Shown here: piece by piece, positions 10,205 to 27,848 of the stretch | Position numbering within the stretch: the first letter of the stretch is position 1 | How the letters are laid out: every line of letters begins with the position of its first letter | IMG/VR virus record: IMGVR_UViG_3300048091_000418 | Coordinates: 1 to 53,491 of that record | Origin: a virus | DNA length: 53,491 nt | Strand: one strand, 5' to 3' | Position numbers and translations under genes: made by a program | The notes under the pieces: model-generated | The model's database searches: none | What the model saw: the letters and a program-made list of their open reading frames with translations, nothing else | Told to the model about the DNA's origin: nothing

Positions 10205-10423
10205 ATGAGTCAGCAACAAGCACAAATTGATGCGCTGGAGCATCTGGTAGTCGCTTTGTATAAGGAATTGCGCGCCAAAACCGATATCTCACTGCTACCG
10301 GTGATTAATGCAGCAAAGGCCTCCGCCCTTGACTCAGAAGGCGCTGGCGGTCCAGATCAAAAGACTGCAGTAGCTGAATATCTTGAGCATCTGGCGTGGC
10401 GATTGGGAAATAGCGGCCGCTAA
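10205..10423 (+). CDS. Small helical phage protein, unknown function
   Basis: 72-aa protein MSQQQAQIDALEHLVVALYK..., predicted mostly helical (residues 3-27 amphipathic, 50-68 helical), with no Cys. The start follows ACAAGGAGCTTTAA. The leader contains a perfect CCGGC-ATTGG-GCCGG hairpin (10174-10188), as in other plus-strand genes of this region. It is convergent with, and overlaps by 4 bases, the end of the gene at 10420. Function unknown. Confidence 0.65.
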   Translation: MSQQQAQIDALEHLVVALYKELRAKTDISLLPVINAAKASALDSEGAGGPDQKTAVAEYLEHLAWRLGNSGR

Positions 10424-10728
10424 TCCTCGGCTGTTTGCATCGATAGTTTCAGTCGTATGCTGTCCAGCTTTCGCGCCACGAGTGGCGAAATAGTGATTTC
10501 GTGGCGCGGAGGTGTCAGTAAGGGCAGGGCCCCGCCCGCGCCAAGCCGGTGCAGGTGGTGAATCATCAGCGTGATCGCCTCGCCCTGTTCCTCTATGCCG
10601 CTCCAGGCCATCAACTCAGCTAAGGCTTGGCGGGTGCCGGCCATGCAATGCAGCCTGATTTCTTCCTCGCCGCGAGTCTTTCGTCTCGCAGCAGTCTTTG
10701 CCGATCGATCTTTCTGCGCGGCTGCCAT
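10420..10728 (-). CDS. Small basic phage protein, possible DNA binder
   Basis: 102-aa protein with a basic start (MAAAQKDRSAKTAARRKTRG), then EEIRLHCMAGTRQALAELMAWSGIEEQGEAITLMIHHLHRLG. That strand-helix-helix order recalls ribbon-helix-helix proteins; the C-terminal 40 residues are separate. The ATG at 10728 follows GAGGTAGCTC. It is the last gene of the leftward recombination operon (76 bases after the gene ending at 10804). The function is inferred weakly. Confidence 0.6.
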   Translation of the reverse strand: MAAAQKDRSAKTAARRKTRGEEEIRLHCMAGTRQALAELMAWSGIEEQGEAITLMIHHLHRLGAGGALPLLTPPRHEITISPLVARKLDSIRLKLSMQTAED

Positions 10729-20739: not shown

Positions 20740-21552
20740 ATGCATACCCAAATACCAATCGGCAATACCCCGAACCATGTCGCGACACGTTTTCGCGATT
20801 CTGAAAACGTGTCGCGTACCACGATGTCCTCTCGCGAGATCGCTGATCTGGTTGGTTCTCGCCATGACAAGGTCAAGCAGTCCATCGAGCGTTTGGCTGC
20901 TCGCACCGACAACAATGGAAAGGCTGTGATCGCTCTTCCCCCAATGGGGGAATACCTCGATAGCCTCGGCAGGAAGGCGTCCGAGTACATGATCTGCAAG
21001 CGCGACAGCTTCGTCGTGGTCGCCCAGCTCAGCCCTGAGTTTACTGCGGCACTTGTGGATCGCTGGCAGGAGCTGGAAGGGCAAATCGCTCAGCCCCGTG
21101 AACTCTCCCGCATGGACCTGATCCAGTTAGCCTTCGAAGCTGAGCAGGCGCGCCTGCAACTGACCATTCAAGTCGAAGCCCAGGCCACCAAAATTCATTC
21201 CTTGGAAAACCTGTTCAAGGAAGGCATGACCCACACCCAATTCTGCAAGGGCCTCAATGGGGTCAACGTCATGCAGGTGGGCAAGTACCTCGAAGGGCGC
21301 AACTGGCTGTTCAACGAAAGCAAATCTGGCCTGCGCTTCCGTGTGGCGTCTTATGCCCGCGATAAGTACATGACCGAACACCAGCACGAAGTCACCCCGC
21401 ATGGTCGCGAGCCATTCGTTTCCTTCACTCCCGTTCTGCTCAAGAAGGGCGCTGTGCGCCTGTACGACCTGTACCTGGCCGGCGAGCTGCCAATGAAGAA
21501 GGGCTGGGACGGCCTGTACACCCACGACAAAGCCCTGCGAGGTGCCGCGTGA
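20740..21552 (+). CDS. Rha/KilAC-type phage regulatory protein (antirepressor)
   Basis: 270-aa protein. Residues 29-110 match the Rha family (MSSREIADLVGSRHDKVKQSI... then SEYMICKRDSFVVVAQLS). About 150-270 match the KilAC domain (FKEGMTHTQFCKGLNGVNVMQVGKYLEGRNWLF...KDKYMTEHQ-like and PVLLKKGAVRLYDLYLAG). Such proteins act as antirepressors or regulate phage growth. GAGAGGCCCGATT precedes the ATG at 20740. The first 28 codons contain a 14-bp inverted repeat (20781-20816) and a TGTCGCGACA site that recurs upstream of the Acb2-like gene. The conserved domain begins at the ATG 20824, so the lead may be regulatory. Confidence 0.88.
   Translation: MHTQIPIGNTPNHVATRFRDSENVSRTTMSSREIADLVGSRHDKVKQSIERLAARTDNNGKAVIALPPMGEYLDSLGRKASEYMICKRDSFVVVAQLSPEFTAALVDRWQELEGQIAQPRELSRMDLIQLAFEAEQARLQLTIQVEAQATKIHSLENLFKEGMTHTQFCKGLNGVNVMQVGKYLEGRNWLFNESKSGLRFRVASYARDKYMTEHQHEVTPHGREPFVSFTPVLLKKGAVRLYDLYLAGELPMKKGWDGLYTHDKALRGAA
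20778..20819. promoter_or_regulatory. TGTCGCGACA site pair and 14-bp dyad in the Rha gene
   Basis: TGTCGCGACA (20778-20787) and TGTCGCGTAC (20810-20819) start 32 bases apart. The inner arms CGCGACACGTTTTC and GAAAACGTGTCGCG (20781-20816, 8-base loop) form a perfect 14-bp inverted repeat. The same site pair, also 32 bases apart, occurs at 26486-26527. Likely a binding site for a dimeric regulator, possibly Rha itself. Confidence 0.55.
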
Positions 21553-25837: not shown

Positions 25838-26170
25838 ATGCCAAACATGCCAGACAAACCAGACACCTGGGCGATAGCGCTTGCGTGGTTGAGCCAGCAT
25901 TCGCCGATCCTCTATGCGGCTGCGCTGTCCTGCGCAATGGCAGTCCTTCGCATCACTTACGGCGGCGGCACGCGGCGCCAGATGTTGGTGGAAGGCGCGA
26001 TCTGTGGTGGGTTGACCCTGACCATCATCAGCGGCTTGGATTTCTTTGGCCTGCCGCAAAGCATGGCCACCTTCGCCGGCGGCTGGGTTGGCTTCCTAGG
26101 AGTGGAGAAGATCCGGAACATCGCGGATCGGGTGACTGACTTCAAGTTGCCGAGTCGAAAGCCCGAATAG
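25838..26170 (+). CDS. Lambda S-like holin
   Basis: 110-aa holin with three likely membrane spans (about 25-42, 52-70, 74-93): PILYAAALSCAMAVLRITYGGG, MLVEGAICGGLTLTIISGLDFFGL, and MATFAGGWVGFLGVEKI. Pattern and length follow lambda S (107 aa). It begins MPNMPDKPD, with two Met codons three residues apart, like the dual starts that give lambda holin and antiholin. GGGGAGGAACCGAG precedes the first. The endolysin lies 24 kb away, which is unusual. Confidence 0.9.
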   Translation: MPNMPDKPDTWAIALAWLSQHSPILYAAALSCAMAVLRITYGGGTRRQMLVEGAICGGLTLTIISGLDFFGLPQSMATFAGGWVGFLGVEKIRNIADRVTDFKLPSRKPE

Positions 26171-26485: not shown

Positions 26486-26527
26486 TGTCGCGACATGTTT
26501 CGAGAACCAGCAAATTGTGTCGCGACA
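26486..26527. promoter_or_regulatory. TGTCGCGACA site pair upstream of the Acb2-like gene
   Basis: Two perfect TGTCGCGACA palindromes at 26486-26495 and 26518-26527, 32 bases start to start. This spacing is identical to that of the pair in the Rha gene at 20778-20819. The second ends 18 bases before the ATG of the Acb2-like gene. They could be operators linking the two genes. Confidence 0.6.
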
Positions 26528-26545
26528 CGCGACGAGGAAAGCAGC

Positions 26546-26776
26546 ATGGATAACCAGCACAAGAAAATCACCGGTTACCGCGACCTGAGCCAGTCGGAAA
26601 TCGACGGTATGAACTCCATCAAGGCGCTTGAAGCTGACGCGGGTGAGCTGTTCAAGCAGATCAGTCAGATTGAAGGCGTTGATCCACGCCTGCTGGCTTT
26701 GGCCAAGACGAACCTGCAACAGGGCTTCATGTGGTTCGTGCGCTCGATCGCCAAGCCTGCTGATCCGTTCAGCTGA
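26546..26776 (+). CDS. acb2: Acb2-like anti-CBASS protein
   Basis: 76-aa protein MDNQHKKITGYRDLSQSEID... followed by MNSIKALEADAGELFKQISQIEGVDPRLLALAKTNLQQGFMWFVRSIAKP. The GYRDLS-x2-EI-x2-MN-x-IK and LA-x2-NLQ-x-GFMW-x-VR-x-IA-P blocks match, as I recall it, the Acb2 (Acb2/Tad1 hairpin) family of phage proteins that bind cyclic oligonucleotides made by CBASS and stop abortive infection. It is predicted to be a helical hairpin. The start follows GAGGAAAGCAGC. It lies after the holin in the lysis/moron region and is coupled to the next gene (TGATG). Confidence 0.78.
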   Translation: MDNQHKKITGYRDLSQSEIDGMNSIKALEADAGELFKQISQIEGVDPRLLALAKTNLQQGFMWFVRSIAKPADPFS

Positions 26777-26964
26777 TGAGCAACGTCACCCGCCTGCACC
26801 ACGCCCTGCCGATGAGCGCAGACATCAACAAGGCCATCGTCGACTTGGATCGCGCCATCGCCAAAGCAATCGACGCCGCTAAGTCCGCCGGTCTGCCGCA
26901 GGGGTTGATCGTCGCGCTGCTTCACGGCCAGGCGCACAGCGAGACTGCCTGGATGGTGAGTTGA
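26776..26964 (+). CDS. Small helical protein coupled to the Acb2-like gene
   Basis: 62-aa protein MSNVTRLHHALPMSADINKA... followed by IVDLDRAIAKAIDAAKSAGLPQGLIVALLHGQAHSETAWMVS. One long amphipathic helix then a short one. Its start shares one base with the upstream stop, so translation is coupled. Function unknown; a partner or second counter-defence gene is possible. Confidence 0.6.
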   Translation: MSNVTRLHHALPMSADINKAIVDLDRAIAKAIDAAKSAGLPQGLIVALLHGQAHSETAWMVS

Positions 26965-27224: not shown

Positions 27225-27848
27225 ATGAAGCGTCCGCATCCTCCAAAGGGTCTTGGCCTGTTCAATGAGGGTGATGATTACCCGATCAGCTTCGTGCCGG
27301 CTTCTGATGTTGCTGACTGGTTGTTCTCTACGATTATTGACCCCGATGGCGAGCTGCACAATGAAGATCATGAGCATTTGATTGATGCCGATCTCGCTGT
27401 GTTATGGGCAGCTGGCGGGTTCACCAAGCAGGGCCGGACAGTGGTTGGCCAGGCCGAACAGGTCACGTTCCGCTGTGGACCATGGCAGAAGGGTAGGCAA
27501 GAGCAACAGATGACTCAGTGGTTCGGTCGAGTGCCTTCCTACCTGATCACCCTGGATGCCAGCTACTGCGCCCAATGTTCGGACGCTGACTTCTGCGCCC
27601 TGATCGAACACGAGCTTTATCACATAGCCCAAGAGCACGACGTATTCGGTGCCCCCAAGTTCACAAAGGAGGGAATGCCGAAACTTTGCATGCGCGGCCA
27701 CGACGTCGAAGAGTTCGTCGGTGTCGTCCGCCGCTACGGTGCGAGCGCTGATGTCCAGGCGCTGGTAGACGCTGCAAACAATCCTGCCGAGGTAGGGAAA
27801 TTGAACATATCGAGGGCCTGCGGAACCTGTCTGCTCAGATCGGCCTGA
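27225..27848 (+). CDS. Putative phage metallopeptidase
   Basis: 207-aa protein with the zinc-metallopeptidase motif HELYH (His129-Glu130-His133) inside DFCALIEHELYHIAQEHD, and a likely third ligand further on (His138 or a later His/Glu). This matches a phage-encoded family annotated as putative metallopeptidase. Several Cys (CAQCSDADFC) lie just before it. AAGGAGG is at a good distance from the ATG. It lies right before the terminase genes, where related phages often carry it. Substrate unknown. Confidence 0.8.
   Translation: MKRPHPPKGLGLFNEGDDYPISFVPASDVADWLFSTIIDPDGELHNEDHEHLIDADLAVLWAAGGFTKQGRTVVGQAEQVTFRCGPWQKGRQEQQMTQWFGRVPSYLITLDASYCAQCSDADFCALIEHELYHIAQEHDVFGAPKFTKEGMPKLCMRGHDVEEFVGVVRRYGASADVQALVDAANNPAEVGKLNISRACGTCLLRSA

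Follow-up and report, generated by a model that had tools for sequence, protein, structure and literature searches.

A short Acb2-type gene and a recurring 36-bp dyad in the late cargo slot of a Pseudomonas prophage

The DNA analysed here, a viral stretch of 53,491 nucleotides (hereafter the window), comes from a Pseudomonas prophage and includes a gene for a protein of the known Acb2 family, whose members soak up a bacterial alarm signal; this one is short and strongly conserved. The product of positions 26546-26776 is an Acb2-type, rather than a Tad1-type, protein, and it most likely acts as a cyclic-oligonucleotide sponge expressed alongside the late genes. We think it probable that the locus as a whole consists of this short Acb2-type sponge, a separate cargo gene (gene B) and a dyad that belongs to the slot holding them and that, by our favored guess, is read by a phage factor.

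An Acb2-type protein with a shortened hairpin

Three features define the gene and its neighbor:
26534-26541, + strand: Shine-Dalgarno-like GAGGAAAG of acb2, read from the sequence
26546-26776, + strand: acb2-like gene, short-hairpin form, 76 aa (PF24729, PDB match, fold search, Y11/K26, dN/dS)
26776-26964, + strand: gene B, 62 aa, its start overlapping the acb2 stop (TGATG); phrog_15190

A preliminary description had listed both open reading frames and their TGATG overlap and had assigned the first product to the Acb2 family. The frames and overlap are present as claimed, and both genes are under purifying selection, strongly so for acb2 (dN/dS ~0.06); the ~0.19 of gene B marks it as a real gene. 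Profile search, structure prediction and residue conservation all bore out the family match. The profile search against Acb2/Tad1 proposed at that stage matched Pfam PF24729, the Acb2/Tad1 hairpin, with a score of 68.2 bits, well above the curated cut-off of 27, and sequence comparison with solved Acb2 chains in the PDB gave E=1.5e-14. The AlphaFold2 model (pLDDT 84) has two long helices, lacks a short N-terminal helix and is of low confidence at residues 1-7. Foldseek against the PDB returned 8h2j/8h2x (Acb2) first and then T4 Vs.4, at probability 1.00 (8h2j_A: E=1.9e-4, probability 1.00, TM 0.72 by query), so that the predicted protomer resembles the Acb2 hairpin. PADLOC and NCBIfam contained no matches to acb2 or gene B.

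By tblastn, 279 phage records matched the acb2 product, with sources including Vibrio, Pseudomonas and enterobacterial phages. Of 70 distinct close homologues, 68 keep both Y11 and K26, which we take to be residues of the Acb2 pocket; together with T55, these two are invariant in a wider alignment. In T4 Acb2, binding is lost in Y8A (PMC12657218) and lowered in T68M (PMC12657230); T55 aligns with T68 by our own matching of residue numbers.

PaMx33 Acb2 (p26; PDB 8h2j, 8h2x), whose gene was taken from the public record for alignment, shares with the window protein the family, the fold, the N-terminal block, Y11, K26 and the C-terminal GKT/AKT helix. The window protein retains this last motif as AKT, has the Acb2-type N-terminus MDNQHKKI-GYRDL, and is colinear with the proven PaMx33 protein except that 19 residues are deleted at the tip of the hairpin; its gene differs further in sitting in the late cargo slot of a temperate phage. 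The full-length hairpin of PaMx33 is thus absent, which we do not treat as decisive because the short form, with homologues of 74-76 aa, is common to many phages. T4 Vs.4 (the Acb2 of T4, PDB 7uq2) has the same fold and C-terminal helix motif, although sequence identity is low (23% in the fold alignment); F82 of the T4 protein, which stacks on the ligand, is alanine in the window protein and likewise in PaMx33 in our alignment. Tad1, the Thoeris sponge, has the PF24729 hairpin in common with the window protein, but its N-terminal β-sheet before the hairpin is absent from the 76-residue product, which comprises two helices only. The assignment to the Acb2 type rests on the profile, the solved-structure matches, the colinear PaMx33 alignment, the kept residues and the lack of this sheet.

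Cyclic-oligonucleotide binding and CBASS blocking would follow from family membership. After infection or induction, acb2, for which we found no separate promoter, would be made with the late transcript; its product would assemble via the helical hairpin and hold cyclic oligonucleotides from CBASS or related enzymes, so that the effectors would not be triggered. Because the hairpin tip is missing, the ligand range may differ from that of PaMx33 Acb2. That the short form is tuned to other signals instead of classic CBASS products (e.g., Thoeris gcADPR or Panoptes decoy nucleotides) strikes us as improbable, in that the N-terminal block and the two known pocket residues match the Acb2 type and the Tad1 sheet is missing. 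What speaks for such tuning is the deletion at the tip, the union of Acb2 and Tad1 in PF24729, the several nucleotide classes bound by sponges of this group (PMC12043709), and the triggering of Panoptes when Acb2 binds decoy nucleotides (PMC12657218).

Gene B and its relation to acb2

The only database match of gene B is phrog_15190, and the gene was present in 28 of the 199 Pseudomonas genomes sampled. Its AF2 model (pLDDT 87) is a short helix plus a helical hairpin, for which the best fold-search match in the PDB had E=1.9, with no Acb2 among the matches. Descent from acb2 by duplication or divergence was considered and rejected: the two hairpins align by eye, but hhalign gave a probability of 0.9% and the fold search was empty. 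Matches of gene B to RecG in actinobacterial MAGs were dismissed as chance.

Gene B had been described as a coupled partner of acb2. Gene order and translational overlap uphold the coupling, gene B standing directly behind acb2 in 49 of 80 loci fetched with acb2 and sharing the identical stop-start overlap in 48. An obligate pair, on the other hand, is contradicted, as each gene also occurs alone: acb2 lacks gene B in 31 of these 80 loci, and among 34 loci fetched with gene B only 8 have acb2 and 26 do not (some fragments are short, so that in certain cases the missing gene may merely lie outside the fragment). Moreover, gene B is truncated or frameshifted beside an intact acb2 in several phages, genes other than acb2 can precede it, and acb2 genes located elsewhere in the genome are not accompanied by gene B. 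No Shine-Dalgarno sequence is evident for gene B in the window, while several B genes that stand alone are preceded by one, located behind the dyad.

A two-part complex of Acb2 and the gene B product, or a regulator-effector pair, could be read from the overlap in 48 loci, from the position of gene B behind acb2 without an obvious Shine-Dalgarno sequence, and from the helical hairpins predicted for both products. The frequency with which each gene stands alone, the broken B genes, the B-less acb2 genes elsewhere and the other genes that may stand before B make such a pairing very unlikely. Re-initiation when coupled, together with an independent function, is the simplest reading because of the solo occurrence, the broken copies, the other preceding genes and the Shine-Dalgarno pattern. 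We therefore regard gene B as most probably a small cargo gene in its own right, with translation by re-initiation wherever it lies behind acb2; its product looks like separate cargo and not an Acb2 subunit.

The late cargo slot and the dyad

The slot and the dyad copies of the window are as follows (no strand is assigned to the dyads):
25838-26170, + strand: holin, upstream boundary of the slot (Pfam PF05106, 107.5 bits)
26489-26524: late dyad copy, 21 bp before the acb2 start
27225-27848, + strand: phage metallopeptidase, downstream of the slot and before terminase (Pfam PF18894, 144.5 bits)
20740-21552, + strand: Rha / KilAC-type phage antirepressor gene holding the early dyad (PF09669, 42.9 bits; phrog_63 anti-repressor Ant, E=9e-57)
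20781-20816: early dyad copy, 13-bp perfect arms, within the 5' end of the antirepressor gene
10420-10728, - strand: 102-aa phrog_5439 gene holding the third dyad (phrog_5439, E=1e-37; weak phrog_536 transcriptional regulator, E=0.006)
10472-10508: third dyad copy, 37 bp, C/G type, within the 3' part of the phrog_5439 gene

acb2 lies between the lysis and terminase genes, in agreement with its earlier placement inside a lysis/moron segment: the holin is upstream, and the metallopeptidase and terminase are downstream. The metallopeptidase gene is named transposase in PHROGs, and its apparent counterparts in public phage records are labeled transposase or HicA toxin, probably by misannotation. 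As in lambdoid morons or linkers, small cargo genes stand here at a module joint. Unlike them, the slot has no promoter or terminator of its own that we found (no sigma-70-type promoter or intrinsic terminator was detected near the dyad), and at the joint sits a symmetrical 36-bp site, of which two further copies lie in regulatory genes.

Two TGTCGCGACA sites had been reported upstream of acb2. Both copies exist (26486-26495 and 26518-26527); they are not two operators, however, but form the two arms of a single inverted repeat at 26489-26524. Relatives also have a version of this repeat, CGCGCCACG...CGTGGCGCG, whose single arms are no longer palindromic yet match each other; the unit is therefore a 36-37 bp dyad, CGCG[A/C]CAC-N20/21-GTG[T/G]CGCG.

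The late dyad was surveyed by three pattern scans of IMG/VR, which yielded at least ~300 records; the scans required exact arms and are therefore uninformative on arm pairing. Among the matches listed, ~218 of 302 elements begin 0-2 bases downstream of the preceding gene's stop codon, and the late dyad is followed by gene B in 62 cases, by acb2 in 52 and otherwise by a wide range of small or structural genes. Since such varied genes follow the dyad, while acb2 at other genomic places lacks it, the late dyad is a feature of the slot and not of acb2. All three elements, acb2, gene B and the late dyad, are present in Aurca01, a temperate phage available as an isolate. Further small uncharacterised slot genes behind the dyad (e.g., in L029, L030 and L019) form 69-aa, 72-aa, 58-aa and zinc-ribbon-like 101-aa families. 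These are possible counter-defence candidates; Pfam searches of ten other cargo genes gave nothing beyond weak zinc ribbons.

The early and third-copy slots of the dyad also recur in relatives, and phrog_5439 was found in 34 of 39 records tested. Its 102-aa product had no Pfam or PDB match; by eye it appears ribbon-helix-helix-like and may be a dyad binder. Within the antirepressor and phrog_5439 genes, the dyad arms are kept despite amino-acid change (VATRF...ENVSR versus APRF...ENVAR in relatives). The dyad-coding N-terminus of the antirepressor gene is constant in the window and in L428, L438 and L467, and the domain that follows varies between phages. C/G-type phages (L402, L472, L476) have an extra dyad between head-morphogenesis-like (~350 aa) and scaffold-like genes, both named by eye. 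In Pseudomonas sp. GM18, three of four dyad copies lie within 16 kb of one contig, beside its gene B. The early and late copies of the window are of the A/T type and the third is of the C/G type, a mixture that led us to reject strict co-evolution of all copies within one genome.

What the dyad may do

In the 199 Pseudomonas genomes, the A-or-C dyad pattern was counted 222 times, spread over 103 genomes, whereas the reversed control gave ~19 (our sum from the count table), and the mixed-arm pattern occurred 2 times against 9 in its own control; the sites are related by descent, so that these counts are not independent events. Mixed arms are clearly disfavored. Inner positions 10-12 are A/T in both arms of most copies and are paired in only about half to three quarters. 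The RNA fold of the window dyad is modest (z = -2.3), and its best structure differs from a simple hairpin. Rfam searches over the dyad region and the whole window gave no match, and a literature search for the arm sequences gave unrelated matches only.

Our guess, favored over the other readings, is that a phage-encoded factor reads the dyad as a DNA site. Action as DNA is suggested by the A/T-rich inner parts without strict pairing, the copies inside translated genes and the fixed length, and the matched arms point to RNA or cruciform pairing. A point against a DNA operator is that A/T and C/G copies coexist in one phage yet almost none mix arms, which would not be expected of a reader tolerant of half-sites. 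The phrog_5439 protein is the first candidate reader, since its gene holds a copy; the factor would act on the late dyad and also on those within the antirepressor and phrog_5439 genes.

It is possible, though we doubt it, that the dyad works instead as an RNA stem-loop in the transcript, as a processing, stability or antitermination site. The arms co-vary, with A-T or C-G at position 5 and mixtures only at chance level, the element begins at the upstream stop codon in most of the listed matches, and its length is constant at 36-37. Against this, inner positions 10-12 keep A/T with incomplete pairing, two copies lie within translated genes, in C/G-type phages the asymmetry is oriented oppositely, with respect to transcription, between the phrog_5439 gene and the late genes, and the fold is the modest one noted above. 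Slightly less probable is a mere linker for module swapping by recombination: the dyad does stand at module joints, flanked by differing genes in the late slot and followed in the antirepressor gene by N-terminal domains that differ, but plain homology would neither keep the arms matched while the sequence changes nor fix the length at 36-37 bp.

The dyad could be the control site of an undescribed phage circuit in which one trans-acting factor ties together phrog_5439 (a small left-operon regulator), the right-operon antirepressor and the late counter-defence slot, and it could serve as bait for new counter-defence genes, including gene B; we put this forward tentatively.

The Acb2 reading is ordinary in kind, and the short form is widespread. 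The gene extends a known sponge family to a compact version that many temperate Pseudomonas phages have, and it shows how large a part of the hairpin can be dispensed with. The dyad is more interesting than first described and would matter more than acb2 itself: it poses a concrete regulatory question and, because the slot it marks is occupied by acb2 and a number of uncharacterised small genes, it offers a sequence handle for further counter-defence genes.
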